A stretch of DNA of 64,000 nucleotides from Isosphaeraceae bacterium EP7 (lineage in GTDB: Bacteria > Planctomycetota > Planctomycetia > Isosphaerales > Isosphaeraceae): contig CP151667.1 in assembly GCA_038400315.1 (NCBI GenBank), positions 2,305,174 to 2,369,173 of the forward strand, written 5' to 3'. Within the stretch, counting starts at the first letter, position 1, and each line of letters starts with the position of its first letter. The position numbers and the translations under genes were made by a program. A model generated the notes under the pieces. It saw only the letters and a list, made by a program, of their open reading frames with translations, had not been told where the DNA came from and ran no database searches. This document shows positions 2,722 through 25,453 of this stretch, one piece after another.

Positions 2722-3810
2722 TCAATGCGACCGCGCCGGACGCGGGTTGATGATCGTCTCGACCTGCATGCCCACCAGGTCGGCCGCCGCCTTGGCGTCG
2801 TCCAGCTTGATGACGACCGGCACGATCCGCAGGTCTTGCTGCGCCCTGGGATCCACGCTCACCAGCCTGTTCCGGCCGACGACCAGGCCCACCTGGCTCA
2901 CCTTGCCGGGCAGCACCTTGCCGAGCACGTTCACCGTCGCTGCGTCGCCCACGCGGATCGAGGGGAGGTCGGCTTGGTCGACCTCGGCGCTGGCGACCAT
3001 CGCGGTGGTGTCGCCGAAAAGGAGTAGCGGCCCAGATCCGACCTCGCCGGCATGCACCAGCAGGTCGAGCACACGACCGGCCCCGGGGGCCTTGACGATG
3101 CACTGCTCCAGGTTCGCGCGGGCGAGGTCAACCTGCGCCTTGATCGCCTGGTTCGCGGGAGAATCCTCGGCCAGGGCCCTATCTTCGAGGGCACGCTTGC
3201 GGTCGAGAAATTCCAGCTCGGAGTCGAACGCCCCCTTCTCGGACTGGGCGCGATAGACCTCGGCCGCGACCTTCGACAGGTCGGCATCCAGTTGCGACTT
3301 GTTGGGCACGGGCTCACCCTCGGCCGGTTTGGTCGCGACCTCTGCGCCGACCCGTGCCTTGCGAAGGTTGTTCAGGAGCAGATTCTGGCCTTCCGCAAGC
3401 TGTTTCAGGCCATCCACCTTGGCTTGCTTCGTCTTGTCGAACGCCTCGCGCTCGAGTTTCAGGCTCTCCCGCTTCAGGTTGAGCGCGTCGATGGCCTGGC
3501 GTTGCTGGGTCTCGGCGAGCGCGAGCTGGGCCGTCGCGGCGTCGAAGCCTTCGAGGTGGGCCAGCGGGGCTCCGGCCTCAACGCGTTCGCCCTGCTTGAC
3601 GAGGATCGCCAGCACGCGCTGGCCGGGTCGCGAGCCGACGAGGATCAGGCCCGTCTCGGGCTCAAGCCGCGCCAAGGCGTGCGACTCGTCTCGAGGTGCC
3701 GCGGCGGTTGGGGTTTGCCCCGCGACGGGACGACCTGACAGCGACAGGATCGCCGCTGCGAGGATGGGAATGGTCGCGGCTCGGATCGGGCGACGGACAT
3801 CCTCTCGCAC
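2722..3810 (-). CDS. HlyD/DevB-like periplasmic adaptor protein
   Basis: This 362-residue protein begins at a GTG (3808-3810) with a GGAGG about 8 nt upstream; no in-frame ATG lies nearby. A signal sequence (RAATIPILAAAILSLSG) is followed by a lipoyl-like half-motif (RVEAGAPLAHLEGF), a long coiled-coil hairpin (about residues 90-235, rich in Ala, Gln and Lys) and the second lipoyl half (VKAPGAGRVLDLLVHAGE), then a beta-barrel region. This is the membrane-fusion-protein layout that links an inner-membrane permease to an outer-membrane TolC channel. It lies directly upstream of the two DevC permeases. The signal sequence looks cleavable, unlike the anchored adaptor at 6148-7803. Confidence 0.87.
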   Translation of the reverse strand: MREDVRRPIRAATIPILAAAILSLSGRPVAGQTPTAAAPRDESHALARLEPETGLILVGSRPGQRVLAILVKQGERVEAGAPLAHLEGFDAATAQLALAETQQRQAIDALNLKRESLKLEREAFDKTKQAKVDGLKQLAEGQNLLLNNLRKARVGAEVATKPAEGEPVPNKSQLDADLSKVAAEVYRAQSEKGAFDSELEFLDRKRALEDRALAEDSPANQAIKAQVDLARANLEQCIVKAPGAGRVLDLLVHAGEVGSGPLLLFGDTTAMVASAEVDQADLPSIRVGDAATVNVLGKVLPGKVSQVGLVVGRNRLVSVDPRAQQDLRIVPVVIKLDDAKAAADLVGMQVETIINPRPARSH

Positions 3811-3936
3811 AGAGACAGCCTCCGTGGGCCGGGGCGCGCGGTGCCCCGACGGTCGATCCGATGGGAGGGAGGGACTCCCCCTCCCTCAGCGGGACGTTTC
3901 CAGGATCACACCGCAATGCATGCGGCGTGCCGGAGA

Positions 3937-4698
3937 TCAGGGAAGCTCTCGCACCTTGAGGCCGCGGAACTCGACGGGCGAGCCCTCGGCTTCCAGGCAA
4001 AGATAACCCTTGCTCGGCGTGCAGCCAGTACCACCCGAGACCTCGCGGCCGTTGACCCAGAGGCGGATCTCGCCGTTGATCCCGCGCACGTAGTAGTGGT
4101 TCCACTCGGGCGTGCCGCGGCTCAGCTTCTGGGTGGGGAAGCTGCGCGAGCCGTCGGGCGAGGTCGGGGGGAAGGGGGTCATCTTCGAGGTGCCGACCGG
4201 GAACACATCCCCGTTCGTGCTGAACCAGTCGCCCACCTTGCCGGTGCTCTTCAGGTACTGATCGGCGTATCCGTGGTCGAGAATCTGGACCTCGATGCCG
4301 CCGCGGGGCAGGGTGCCCGGCTTGATGCCCTTGAGGGCCTCCTCAGGGGCCCAGACGAAGACGCCCGAGTTGCCGCCCGGCTTGAGGTGCCGCCACTCGG
4401 CCACCAGTTCGAAGTTGCCGTAGGGCTTGGCCGTGCGGATCACGCCGACGGGCAGGCCGGTGCTGTGGATCACGCCATCCTTGAAGGTCCAGGTCCCCGG
4501 CTCGTCGTTGACCCGGGCGAAGTCGGCCTCGGTCAGAGCCTTCCAGCCCGGCCCCTGACCGTCGAGGATCGCGTGCGGGCCCTCATTTCCCTTGGCCGCG
4601 GCCTTGGGCTCGTCGGCCGACCGGGCGGTGAGGGCCAGCGGGATGAGACCCGCGACGCCAACCAGCAATGTCCATCTCAGCACGGTGGAGGCTCGCAT
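3937..4698 (-). CDS. Secreted DUF1080 (3-keto-disaccharide hydrolase-like) protein
   Basis: A 253-residue exported protein. A signal peptide (STVLRWTLLVGVAGLIPLALT) is followed by one concanavalin-like DUF1080 domain spanning most of the chain, with typical blocks such as GNSGVFVW (about residues 128-135) and the C-terminal strand EFRGLKVRELP. The family is greatly expanded in planctomycetes; some members hydrolyse 3-keto-glycosides and others are thought to bind carbohydrate. It sits between two export systems on the same strand, with gaps of 111-126 nt on each side, so operon membership is uncertain. No direct functional link to the transporters is visible. Confidence 0.88.
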   Translation of the reverse strand: MRASTVLRWTLLVGVAGLIPLALTARSADEPKAAAKGNEGPHAILDGQGPGWKALTEADFARVNDEPGTWTFKDGVIHSTGLPVGVIRTAKPYGNFELVAEWRHLKPGGNSGVFVWAPEEALKGIKPGTLPRGGIEVQILDHGYADQYLKSTGKVGDWFSTNGDVFPVGTSKMTPFPPTSPDGSRSFPTQKLSRGTPEWNHYYVRGINGEIRLWVNGREVSGGTGCTPSKGYLCLEAEGSPVEFRGLKVRELP

Positions 4699-4809
4699 CG
4701 GCGTCGCTCGCTACTCGAATGGGGCCAAGGGGGCAGGGCCGCCGAGAGAGTCGGCGACCGGCGCGGCCCCATGGTAAGGCGCACGACCGGCCGACGCAAA
4801 CGCCCCGCG

Positions 4810-22012: not shown

Positions 22013-22477
22013 TTATCCCGCACGTTCGTACTCAATCGGTGACATGTAGCCCAGCGTCGAATGGCGCCGGACGCGGTTGTAGAACACCTCGATGTACTCG
22101 AAGAGGCTCGACCTCGCTTCTGCTCTCGTGGCATCGTCCTCGCCGTGGACCAACTCCTTCTTCAGGCTGGCGAAGAACGACTCCATCGGTGCGTTAACCC
22201 AGCAGTTGGCTCGACGACTCATGCTGCAGGTGATCCCCTGGCTGGTGAGCAGCCGCTGCGAGTGCTCACTGGCGTACTGGCTGCCCCGGTCGGTGTGGGC
22301 CACCAGGTCCCTCCCCGGCAGGCGTCGCGAGACCGCCATCTCCAGGGCCTCGACGACCAACCGGCTGTGTCGCCCCGCTCACTCATCGACCAGCCGACGA
22401 TCTGCCGCGAGAAGAGATCCTCCACGGCGGCCAGGTAGAGCCACCCCTGGCGAGTCGGGATGTAGGTGATATCGATG
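22013..22477 (-). pseudogene. IS3-family transposase OrfB, C-terminal fragment (frameshifted)
   Basis: The reverse strand encodes the second half of an IS3-type DDE transposase: [19 protein letters not shown] (first Asp of the triad), [19 protein letters not shown], then after a frameshift near 22365-22375 [23 protein letters not shown] (second Asp) and the Glu segment MESFFASLKKEL, ending in RRHSTLGYMSP. The frameshift fits a +2 or -1 change between the GWSMSER and SRLVVEAL blocks. The 5' part of the same or a closely related gene lies at 24382-24699, on the far side of the recombinase element. The transposase cannot be functional. Confidence 0.85.
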
Positions 22478-22496
22478 GTCTAATCGCAAATGACAA
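22478..22496 (+). repeat. Left terminal inverted repeat of the recombinase element
   Basis: The 12-bp core CGCAAATGACAA (22485-22496) is matched exactly, inverted, at 24363-24374. The outer 7 bp match with two mismatches. Confidence 0.75.
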
Positions 22497-22616
22497 GTTT
22501 TGCCTGAGCCGCACCGTCCGGATGGCGCCGAAACCGCGCCTTTCCCGCTGAGCCAACCGGGCTCTCGGTGGGCCCTTTATCCTCTCTCCGAGGTACACCA
22601 CCTCGGGGAGGGGATC

Positions 22617-22922
22617 ATGAGACACGACTGGCGGGTCACCCGCCGACTCGAGCCCCATCCGGACGGGCAACGGCGATGGGACCGCGCCTACCAATTGCTC
22701 CTGGACTGGGCCATGACCGTGCCCGCATCAGGGCAGCCCCTCGCGTCGGCCCCGTCGCCATCGATTAACACGCCGGAGGACGTCGATGAAAGTCGCGATC
22801 TATGTGCGCGTCTCGACACAACGACAGGCCCAGACTCAGACCATCGACCAGCAGATCGAGAGGCTGAGTGGCCACGCCAAGGTCCAAGGCTGGGAGTTGC
22901 CCGCGGCGGATGTCTTCCGTGA
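22617..22922 (+). CDS. Small ORF of the recombinase element, unknown function
   Basis: A 101-residue frame begins at an ATG preceded by GAGGGG and starts MRHDWRVTRRLEPHPDG, then RRWDRAYQLLLDWAM. The first 56 residues lie upstream of the recombinase; the rest overlaps the recombinase start by 137 nt in another frame. The N-terminal part is charged with a possible amphipathic helix. It resembles, from memory only, short companion ORFs found before recombinases of this kind. No known domain is recognised. It could be a recombination helper or regulator, or merely a leader frame. Confidence 0.4.
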   Translation: MRHDWRVTRRLEPHPDGQRRWDRAYQLLLDWAMTVPASGQPLASAPSPSINTPEDVDESRDLCARLDTTTGPDSDHRPADREAEWPRQGPRLGVARGGCLP

Positions 22923-24852
22923 CGACGGCTACAGCGGGGCCGCCCTCAAACGGCCCGGGCTCGACCGCCTCCGCGACCGGGCCGCCACGGCCTCGTTCGA
23001 CAAGATCCTCGTCACCGACCCGGATCGGCTCGCGCGAAACTATGTCCATCAAGTCCTCCTCATCGAGGAGCTGCAGAAGAGCGGCTGCCGCGTCGAGTTC
23101 CTCGACCGGCCGATGTCCCAGGACCCGCACGACCAGCTCCTGCTCCAGATACGCGGCGCGGTCGCCGAGTACGAGCGGGCCCTGATCGCCGAGCGCACCA
23201 GGCGCGGCCGGCAACGCCAATTCCGGGCCGGCAAGATGCTCCCCTGGACCCGGGCCCCCTATGGGTACCGGATGGCGGCCGACCGGCCCCGCGACCCCTC
23301 GGGCGTGTACCTCGACCCGGCCGAGGCGGCGGTCGTGGCCGAGATGTTCGCCTGGTACCTGCAGGGCCGCCGCACCCTGCTCGGCCTGGTCAACCACCTC
23401 CACGAGATGGGCGTCACCTCGCCGACGGGCAAGCCGTTCTGGGGCATCGCGTCGGTGCGTGGGGTCCTGACCAACCCCGTCTACACCGGACGGATCTACG
23501 CCGGGCGGAGCCGCTACCGAGTCCCCCGGGTCCGTCGTTCCGCGACCCACCCGATCGGCAAGCCCCAGAAGACCGCCGAATTGCTCCCGCCCGAGGAATG
23601 GATCACGGTGGGGGTCGTCTCGGCAGTCGTTACACAGGAGCAATTTGATCAGACTCGGGTCAAGCTGGACGCCAACAGGTCGTTCTCCGCCCGGAACAAC
23701 AAGGCCCAGACATATCTATTGCGAGCCCTGGTCAGCTGCGGCACGTGTGGCCTGGCCTGTCAGGCTCGCCACGTCGCACCGTGCCATTCTTACTACATCT
23801 GCACCGGGAAGAACTCCCAGGTACGCCGGAGGACCGGTGTCTACTGTGCCACGAAGTTCATCCGGGCCAAGGCCCTGGATGAGCTGGTCTGGCAAGACCT
23901 CTGCGACCTGATTGGCCATCCCGCGACCCTCTCCCATGCCTTCCACCGTGCGGCGGGCGGTAGCTGGCTGCCGCAGGAATTCCATGCACGCCGGGAGGGC
24001 TTGCGACGCGGATTGGCCGGCCTGGATCAGCAACTCGAGCGCCTCACGGAGGCGTACTTGGGAGGTGTGATCCCGCTCGCGGAATACCGGAGACGGCGAG
24101 CCGAGATCGGCCAACGGAAGGCGGCACTGGAACAGCAGGAAGCTTGCCTCACCGGGGAGGGCATCCGCCTCGACGAGATGGCGGGGGTGGCGGCCTCCCT
24201 CGAGGCCTTCAGGGAACGCGTCTCATCGGGCCTTCGGGGCGTGTGCTTCGAGGAGAAGCGGCAGTTGGTCGAATTGCTGATCGATCGGGTCGTCGTCACC
24301 GGGGACGAGATCGAGATCCGGTACGTCTTCCCGACCAACCCCGGAAGCGAGAACGTCCGTTTTTGTCATTTGCGTTCAGACTATCTCGGCGGTCCAGATC
24401 CGGTTGGGAGCCTCCGGTGCGAACTGGCGATCCACCACATTCTCGGCGATGGGTCGATCGTGATTCGAGTCGGTGGTGCAGTGGATCGACTCGATCTCCT
24501 GGATCAGGGCCTCGCCCCATGCCTGGCGGGCAGGGGCTGTGCGGCCTCGCCACCGGTAGTAGCCGCCGGTGGAGGCCTCCAAGACCCGGCACATCAGCCG
24601 GGTCGGCCACTCCTGGCGATGGGCCTCGATGCAGTGAATCGACCAGGCGGTTATAGAGCACATTGGGCTGACCGGAGCGGAGCCCCTCCACCACCTGGCC
24701 GCATCAGTAGGCGTACCACTCGTTGGGACACGGGTCGAGCGTGTAGACCATGCCTTCCTCAAGCGGGCGGCAGAACGCCGGGAAGACGTAGGGATCGGTG
24801 GAGGCGTTGCCTCGGGAGTCCTTCAAATGGACCTCGGCGAAGGCCGCCGTGA
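22786..24852 (+). CDS. Serine recombinase (resolvase-like domain plus recombinase and zinc-ribbon domains) with read-through tail
   Basis: GGAGG lies 6 nt before the ATG. The catalytic serine is S10 (YVRVSTQRQ), in a resolvase domain spanning about 1-145 that ends in EYERALIAERTRRGRQR. It is followed by the recombinase domain (about 155-255), a zinc-ribbon (CGTCGLAC, then PCHSYYICTGK, about 318-345) and a coiled coil (about 400-470). This is the architecture of large serine recombinases that excise or integrate elements without a DDE transposase. The expected C-terminus (FCHLRSDY, about residue 533) coincides with the right terminal repeat. The frame then runs on about 155 residues into antisense IS3 and flanking DNA before a stop, so the native stop is missing. 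Confidence 0.88.
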   Translation: MKVAIYVRVSTQRQAQTQTIDQQIERLSGHAKVQGWELPAADVFRDDGYSGAALKRPGLDRLRDRAATASFDKILVTDPDRLARNYVHQVLLIEELQKSGCRVEFLDRPMSQDPHDQLLLQIRGAVAEYERALIAERTRRGRQRQFRAGKMLPWTRAPYGYRMAADRPRDPSGVYLDPAEAAVVAEMFAWYLQGRRTLLGLVNHLHEMGVTSPTGKPFWGIASVRGVLTNPVYTGRIYAGRSRYRVPRVRRSATHPIGKPQKTAELLPPEEWITVGVVSAVVTQEQFDQTRVKLDANRSFSARNNKAQTYLLRALVSCGTCGLACQARHVAPCHSYYICTGKNSQVRRRTGVYCATKFIRAKALDELVWQDLCDLIGHPATLSHAFHRAAGGSWLPQEFHARREGLRRGLAGLDQQLERLTEAYLGGVIPLAEYRRRRAEIGQRKAALEQQEACLTGEGIRLDEMAGVAASLEAFRERVSSGLRGVCFEEKRQLVELLIDRVVVTGDEIEIRYVFPTNPGSENVRFCHLRSDYLGGPDPVGSLRCELAIHHILGDGSIVIRVGGAVDRLDLLDQGLAPCLAGRGCAASPPVVAAGGGLQDPAHQPGRPLLAMGLDAVNRPGGYRAHWADRSGAPPPPGRISRRTTRWDTGRACRPCLPQAGGRTPGRRRDRWRRCLGSPSNGPRRRPP
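24363..24381 (-). repeat. Right terminal inverted repeat, overlapping recombinase codons
   Basis: This repeat lies inside the recombinase reading frame and encodes the C-H-L-R-S-D residues of its FCHLRSDY segment. The element edge therefore coincides with the expected end of the recombinase. Confidence 0.7.
24382..24699 (-). pseudogene. IS3-family transposase OrfB, N-terminal fragment with internal deletion
   Basis: The reverse strand reads CIEAHRQEWPTRLMCRVLEA, STGGYYRWRGR, then ALIQEIESIH joined directly to CTTDSNHDRPIAENVVDRQF and APEAPNRIWTAEI. In intact IS3 OrfB proteins about 40-50 residues (a THGSPR-type helix region) separate the IH and TTDSNH blocks, so an internal deletion is inferred. 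The reading frame is cut at the right terminal repeat of the recombinase element at 24381. The sequence upstream of OrfB (OrfA) is absent: within a few bases the DNA changes to an unrelated coding remnant. Confidence 0.75.
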
Positions 24853-24975: not shown

Positions 24976-25312
24976 CGGCTGGGGAAGGTCTGGGCCTACG
25001 GCAAGTACCACAACCACGCCCTGAACGGTTGGATGAAGCGGGCGAAGGCGGGCTACGTGATCGAGGTGGTGTGCCGCCCGGCCGGGGCCAAGGGGTTCGT
25101 GCTGCTGCATCGCCGCTGGGTGGTGGAGCGGACCTTCGCCTGGATCGGCCGGTACAGAGCGGAACAGCCGGGACTACGAGTGGTCCGTCGAGTCGAGCGA
25201 GGCGATGATCAAGGTCTGCTCGATCCATCGCATGCTCAGGCTCTTGAAGCCCGATCCCGCCGAGGCGATCCCCTACAGATACCCGAGAAAACCGAAGATT
25301 ATTACCGGATAG
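24976..25312 (+). pseudogene. IS5-family transposase, C-terminal fragment (frameshifted)
   Basis: The plus strand encodes KVWAYGKYHNHALNGWMKRA, then CRPAGAKGFVLL and RRWVVERTFAWIGRYR, the typical C-terminal catalytic region of IS5-type DDE transposases (Glu within VVERTFAW). After a frameshift near 25155-25160 the sequence continues as RNSRDYEWSVESSEAMIKVC and ends KPKIITG at a stop at 25310-25312. The N-terminal two thirds of the transposase are missing. The fragment lies tail-on to the start of the YfhO-like gene and may mark an ancient insertion that truncated the gene at 24704-24970. Confidence 0.82.
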
Positions 25313-25453
25313 ACTCTGAGTGCTCAAATGATTGGTGCGAATCATCTTGAAGCTTGTCTTTTGTTCCAAAGTCGGCAATGCTCGATTTCGTCGTTGAATC
25401 AATTCAGGAAAGCAGATTCGTGGGTCGCAACGATCTACCCCGGAGAATCCCGA

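Follow-up and report, generated by a model that had tools for sequence, protein, structure and literature searches.

A minimal serine-recombinase element that probably carries attP within its recombinase gene, and relatives that appear to use transposase active-site DNA as targets

The element described here lies in a window of 64,000 nucleotides (the whole stretch of DNA analyzed, from Isosphaeraceae bacterium EP7) and is probably a minimal large serine recombinase (LSR) element that moves via a circle and carries attP inside the 3′ end of its recombinase gene, such that integration would swap a conserved protein tail for a target-coded one; in a subfamily of relatives with a GA core, the attB would be DNA encoding the active site of DDE transposases. 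The ends, the core, the missing stop codon, the conserved in-frame left end, the empty site in a paralogue and the targets can all be read from the sequence. The features are as follows.

22474 to 24385, + strand: mobile element, 1912 bp, its outer edges set by the core dinucleotide; supported by a contiguous empty site in a paralogous IS3 gene (L009)
22472 to 22473: left copy of the predicted crossover core, TC
24386 to 24387: right copy of the predicted crossover core, TC
22474 to 22496: left inverted repeat, predicted left attP half-site; 20/23 bases match the other end inverted
24363 to 24385: right inverted repeat, predicted right attP half-site, overlapping the CHLRSDY codons
22474 to 22551, + strand: left-end reading frame of 25 residues, stop at 22549–22551, joined to the recombinase frame only in the predicted circle
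22617 to 22922, + strand: orfA, 101 codons, overlapping the recombinase start in another frame, conserved in relatives; candidate accessory factor
22786 to 24384, + strand: predicted large serine recombinase, 533 codons inside the element (Pfam Resolvase and Recombinase; PHROG integrase)
24385 to 24852, + strand: recombinase ORF tail in the integrated state (one element base, followed by the core and host DNA), 155 codons and a stop
24388 to 24762, − strand: N-terminal side of the target IS3-type transposase (rve match of the joined piece)
22013 to 22471, − strand: C-terminal side of the target IS3-type transposase, its frame itself broken

The original prediction of a mobile element bounded by inverted repeats is borne out: 22474–22496 and 24363–24385 match inverted at 20 of 23 bases, and the 12-mer CGCAAATGACAA has exactly two copies in the 7.2-Mb genome, one at each element end and in opposite orientations, while its backward control has 0 copies. 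The extent first given, 22478–24381, captured the element but not its exact ends, the true span being slightly longer (22474–24385) with the TC cores outside. Terminal inverted repeats had also been called atypical for a serine recombinase; they are in fact expected, because LSR integration leaves a 2-bp core beside inverted half-sites. The attP of A118 is described, in the relevant part of one paper, as pseudo-palindromic with 25-bp half-sites (PMC3783163). Judged from their sequence, the terminal inverted repeats in the window are the two attP half-sites of an integrated LSR element, each flanked by TC.

The whole recombinase ORF (22786–24852) has 688 codons, 533 up to the Y of FCHLRSDY and 155 of junction and host DNA. 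Its predicted product is a large serine recombinase, because Pfam places an N-terminal resolvase domain, then a recombinase domain, then a zinc ribbon (127.1, 54.7 and 24.6 bits, the last just below the Pfam cut-off of 25.3), PHROGs return an integrase family, solved structures related to the catalytic domain include the TP901-1 integrase and TnpX, and a model of middling confidence (pLDDT 76.0, pTM 0.39) contains long helices at residues 396–425 and 431–485. Pfam gave no DUF4368 match in the recombinase. Three further matches to it in its own genome are partial and 27–33% identical.

Scanning the genome collection with six peptide patterns yielded 36 loci from Planctomycetota, Chloroflexi, proteobacteria, Ktedonobacter and cyanobacteria, to which plasmid records added relatives in Pseudomonas, Methylobacterium and Deinococcus. 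Matches at E 1e-90 occur in 4 of 392 genomes of the window's own phylum, own genome included; the family that includes Microvirga sp. VF16 has matches in 2 of 199 genomes, VF16 among them, and the viral_contigs scan gave 3 weak relatives. For a survey of the core, left ends were placed as the best inverted match upstream, with no condition on the flanks. In all 29 insertions whose left end is clear, the dinucleotide one base outside the 18-base repeat matches between the two ends, as expected of the 2-bp core flanking inverted attP half-sites in LSR elements, at a position chosen after earlier inspection of element ends and flanking dinucleotides and among insertions that partly share genomes (4 in VF16, 3 in K. 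racemifer). When read one base off, the dinucleotides were equal in only 12 and 16 insertions. Seven insertions with an unclear left end were uncounted (L095, L056, L114, L119, L041, L078, L099; the best candidate gives equal dinucleotides in 2 and unequal ones in 5), and the survey left out L024 and L062, which contain a run of N, and L064, which lacks upstream DNA. Cores vary by subfamily (TC, GA, TA, CA, TT, AA) and are fixed within subfamilies. The set of 31 distinct insertions used below required equal cores when the left end was chosen, and so admits L114, L119, L041 and L056.

At about 1.9 kb, with inverted ends and several copies in some genomes, the element could be thought a true insertion sequence with IS-type inverted repeats, transposing otherwise than by attP × attB recombination. 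We consider this very improbable, given the LSR domains, a 2-bp core that is fixed within subfamilies and the lack of any IS family match above cut-off (the IS607 NCBIfam profile gave 40.6 bits against a cut-off of 110). Other NCBIfam profiles also stayed below their cut-offs on the recombinase: CcrB (107.7 of 900 bits), CcrC (83.7 of 900) and CcrA (52.6 of 700) of SCCmec, and XisF (116.3 of 375). IS-type inverted repeats were rejected, the core and the LSR domains fitting better with attP half-sites.

As had been proposed, the right repeat overlaps the C-terminal codons of the recombinase (24363–24385 covers CHLRSDY), and the gene has no stop inside the element, running into a host-side tail of 155 codons. 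Across the 31 insertions, the recombinases of relatives end in ...(F/I)C(H/Q/R)L(R/H/L)xDY, and the frame continues past the right end into downstream DNA that differs between copies. With both ends placed, the final 40 codons up to the right end are free of in-frame stops in all 31; three (L058, L114, L068) have one 41–100 codons before that end. The expectation that each target would confer a different C-terminus is likewise confirmed, with host-coded tails of 4 to 327 residues in these insertions. Boundaries far outside the repeats or a stop before the repeat, either of which would have spoken against the original prediction, were looked for and neither was found in the 31 insertions. The public gene models for L115 and L117 take the host tail into the recombinase (CDS ends at 4749 and 4797, element end at about 4549), so the C-termini of this family in databases are partly host-encoded. 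FCHLRSDY was rejected as a natural stop place, the last 40 codons being stop-free in 31 of 31. It had been taken for the natural end of the protein and probably is not, since the left end encodes a conserved continuation that would be joined to it only in the predicted circle.

When the two ends are joined at the core, the recombinase frame crosses attP into the left end, where it reads a conserved peptide, (D/N)GL(I/L)(A/T)NDKFC..R...L.L.WWR with variants; the same peptide, as NGLIANDRFCLSRSVQLVLNWWRR, turned up in an Azospirillum left end that a peptide search recovered. This frame is stop-free over its first 17 codons in 19 of 19 non-redundant members, and the two other frames have a stop within 17 codons in 17 and 14 of the 19. 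Third codon positions of the left end vary more than first and second positions (p=0.0007, nt 4–69), and third positions take 71 of the 152 substitutions counted between close relatives in nine non-overlapping pairs (p=0.0004), compared with 119 of 344 in a control stretch, likewise in nine non-overlapping pairs. The window's left-end frame has no ATG, GTG or TTG in its first 16 codons and hence no evident means of being translated while the element is integrated. These sequences are most simply read as placing the true 3′ end of the recombinase gene in the left end, with attP inside the gene; the recombinase made from the circle would then be longer than that of the integrated copy.

One may argue instead for an ordinary LSR element that lost its stop as attP came to overlap the 3′ end of the gene, FCHLRxDY being the functional end, any tail being tolerated, and the left end being conserved only as attP or control DNA. 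Half of attP must stay conserved anyway, and conservation of the first 24 left-end bases may equally reflect attP binding; the circle frame also stops at no fixed place, 21 to 134 residues beyond the joint. Both points count against the split-gene explanation, and the low confidence with which residues 525–533 of the recombinase are modelled speaks for the alternative. We nevertheless regard this alternative as unlikely, given that a single frame is open in 19 of 19 members and that the third-position excess persists at nt 25–69, mostly outside the presumed 25-bp half-site (p=0.0026), with 53 of 121 substitutions at third positions beyond the first 24 bases in nine pairs of the same type (p=0.01). 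The signal fades beyond nt 69 (nt 70–150, p=0.12).

The split-gene reading predicts a circle. No circle joint or tandem copy was found in the genomes with relatives or in plasmid records. The right-end side of the joint gave 25 matches in 22 genomes, only one of which (L059) ends in the left-end ATGG, and there by chance, the host flank reading GATGG. No plasmid record convincingly covers both halves of the joint, and one hit, H52, is another right end with a host tail beginning FDG.

A distant subfamily (31.6–36.2% identity) shows the same plan. Its best inverted ends match at 15–22 of 22 positions (raw counts, with no chance level), and in 19 of 19 loci there is no recombinase stop inside the element, two of 21 loci, L086 (run of N) and L102, having been dropped for the frame work. 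On visual inspection, its left ends have a (Y)NVAK..F.(W)-type peptide in common. This peptide is in phase with the recombinase at a matching dinucleotide in 12 of 19 loci (L081, L082, L084, L085, L087–L090, L093, L094, L103, L121), out of phase in three (L092, L104, L120) and not judgeable in four (L083, L091, L100, L105), more than one dinucleotide often fitting; where a single dinucleotide matches, four loci are in phase (L089, L090, L094, L121) and two are not (L092, L104). The distant subfamily thus lends modest support to the split-gene plan. In one of its members, L104, a GC-rich hairpin, GGCCCCGGATTTCGGGGCC, lies just within the right repeat, and the recombinase frame is still open past the end.

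The element had been described as recombinase-only, which does not hold: a motif search recovers orfA upstream in 15 of 19 non-redundant members, with about 67–101 codons and an overlap of 56–140 nt with the recombinase start. Its conserved core reads W.v.R....(H/P)DGQRRWDRAYQLLL.W, and its model is one helix at residues 17–34 (mean pLDDT 69.5); Pfam, NCBIfam and PHROG gave no match. Overlap with the start of the recombinase gene accounts for at least part of the conservation toward the end of orfA. At a guess, orfA could be an accessory or directionality factor. The orfA of L019 (about 3760–4053) contains a run of 14 Thr codons, a sign of an internal simple repeat.

In the window, the target is an IS3-type transposase gene. 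Five uninterrupted IS3 relatives in the same genome (L006–L009, L012) carry a WTA-D-ITY stretch (L006–L008 being the same match), and in one of them, the paralogue L009, both flanks of the element map adjacent to each other with a single core, as in an empty site. The interrupted gene is degenerate, its joined frame covering only positions 2–48 of the 102-position rve profile, and a structure search with an IS3 query returned no solved relative. Elsewhere in the window (25033–25350, + strand), an ORF containing RRWVVERTFAWIGRYR resembles the end of an IS5-type transposase and carries an uninterrupted version of the motif that relatives hit.

A GA core (target sense) is found in 19 of the 31 distinct insertions, and joining the flanks of these sites gives a transposase-like frame in which GA occupies codon positions 1–2. 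In 16 of the 19 joined sites, we assigned GA to the codon of a DDE transposase catalytic Asp or Glu, one of the 16 by direct alignment to Tn5 and the rest by profile position or characteristic motif. The assignments are as follows.

IS3 Asp: window, L053
IS4-type Glu: L076, L114, L061
IS5-type Glu: L113, L051, L063, L116, L118, L044, L068
ISAs1-type Glu: L072, L054
IS256-type Glu: L119
IS1182-like Glu: L096

The L076 residue aligns to position 326 of the Tn5 transposase (1mus), which we take to be the catalytic Glu, and the Glu of L119 lines up with a Glu in the solved structure of a Mutator-family transposase. If the DDE_Tnp_1 match is taken as ungapped and positions are counted backward from its end, L113, L116 and L063 reach column 165, and L114 and L076 column 164. 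The remaining catalytic-codon assignments, as well as the IS family names, are presumed from characteristic motifs. Pfam, run on 16 of the 19 GA sites, matched a transposase or integrase-core family in 13 (L061 below the curated cut-off) and gave no such match in L051, L052 and L054. Two of the 19 sites, L052 and L077, have GA at other, non-catalytic Glu codons, which counts against active-site targeting, and L041 is a mosaic of which only the right half fits an active-site target. The Roseomonas mucosa loci L115, L117 and L122 were kept out of the joined-flank work and read flank by flank; in single-flank reading, L115, L117 and L029 also fit an active-site target. L119 and L143, both on the Deinococcus plasmid pDEIPE01, share the same left target flank, within an IS256-type gene.

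Other cores have other targets. TA-core insertions lie in a Tyr codon of IS4/5-type transposases (L075, L059 and the right flank of L099) and, twice, outside any such gene (L106, L107). TT-core insertions hit a phage-integrase SAM-like domain (L067) and a non-coding site (L073), and the AA-core insertion L065 lies at GLDTSK, presumably an IS110-like motif, with no Pfam match. In Ktedonobacter, the CA-core insertions (L021–L023, L028, L037) occupy a repeated non-coding site, AAGCTGTCAYCAGnnGCAAAGTAGC, of which two genomes hold 8 near matches with at most 1 mismatch as empty sites (L123–L130; control orientation 0).

Such a distribution might reflect survival rather than recognition, insertions elsewhere being lost and those in abundant, dispensable transposase genes persisting, and some insertions do lie outside transposase genes (L106, L107 and the Ktedonobacter CA-core sites). 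Survival would, however, scatter insertions along the gene, yet our assignments place 16 of the 19 joined GA sites in one functional codon; moreover, when a target matrix was trained with each site's own target family left out, the true site came top of its region in 10 of 19 cases, a figure to which homology among targets may add. We therefore hold survival alone to be distinctly improbable. The matrix ranks are fair (4–15) for L077, L072, L052, L119, L053 and L051, and poor for the window (67 of 206), L054 (32 of 164) and L041 (22 of 191). Based on these leave-one-family-out ranks, a preference at the DNA level is likely for IS4/IS5-type targets and unproven for IS3.

In the mechanism that we propose, an element of about 1.9 kb, consisting of the small orfA and the recombinase, would move through a circle in which the joined ends form attP. 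After recombination of attP with attB at the 2-bp core, the attP half-sites would form the terminal inverted repeats, each bordered by a copy of the core. The circle would encode the full-length recombinase, its last 20-odd conserved residues coming from the left end if that tail is translated, and integration would swap this left-end-coded piece for whatever the target encodes. The circle's enzyme may be the integrating form, and the clipped form may be impaired or biased toward excision, perhaps together with orfA; we infer these two isoforms from the sequence. In the GA-core subfamily, attB would be the DNA for the DDE transposase active-site motif, so that the catalytic Asp or Glu codon is interrupted. 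We put forward only tentatively, as a real possibility, that a bacterial family alternates between a circle-coded, full-length integrating form and a clipped, host-tailed integrated form, with the rearrangement as a directionality switch, and that one subfamily evolved to parasitize unrelated transposases at the catalytic codon.

The element resembles large serine integrases (A118, TP901-1 and the TndX-like clade) in domain order, 2-bp core and pseudo-palindromic attP half-sites. It is unlike them in being near-minimal, in probably having attP within the recombinase frame, in the GA subfamily's apparent use of transposase active-site DNA and in lacking a DUF4368 match. The many attB sites recall the multi-targeting LSRs described in passages of PMC3783163 and PMC10083194; in the passages of the latter, a large LSR survey, that treat such enzymes, neither a split recombinase nor active-site targeting appears. 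Archaeal suicidal (SSV-type) tyrosine integrases have attP within the integrase gene, as is predicted here, and integration splits that gene between the element ends, and the relevant part of a 2021 review calls self-splitting recombinases exclusively archaeal (PMC8371274). Here, in contrast, the enzyme is a serine recombinase in bacteria rather than the tyrosine recombinase of an archaeal element, and only the extreme C-terminus would be severed, leaving the catalytic domain intact. The repressor of mycobacteriophage BPs (integration-dependent immunity) likewise has attP within its gene and is shortened C-terminally by integration, but it is not a recombinase, and the piece removed is a degradation tag, as described in part of PMC4557955. 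These two are the nearest analogues, and neither is identical. In IS427 and IS870, the stop codon is supplied by the target; the gene is thus completed by target DNA as here, but these elements have DDE transposases, and in our family no fixed stop is created. IS607-family transposons are also small elements with a serine recombinase, but, according to a passage of PMC6188088, they have no terminal inverted repeats and an N-terminal DNA-binding domain, the opposite order to that seen here. Narrow-term searches of open-licence PMC papers found no literature on this element family, on serine recombinases that are split or on LSRs directed at the active-site codons of transposases.

If the split-gene reading is true, the wording "exclusively archaeal" for self-disrupting recombinases would be contradicted, and a bacterial serine counterpart would represent an independent origin of self-splitting recombinases. 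It would also offer a simple, testable answer to how an LSR could sense the integrated state of its element. Unrelated transposase families have little in common beyond their active site, and one subfamily appears to use the DNA for that site as attB. Natural LSRs with varied cores (GA/TC, TA, CA, TT, AA) and motif-like sites are of interest for genome engineering, and the family to which the window's element belongs may inform how mobile elements parasitize one another.
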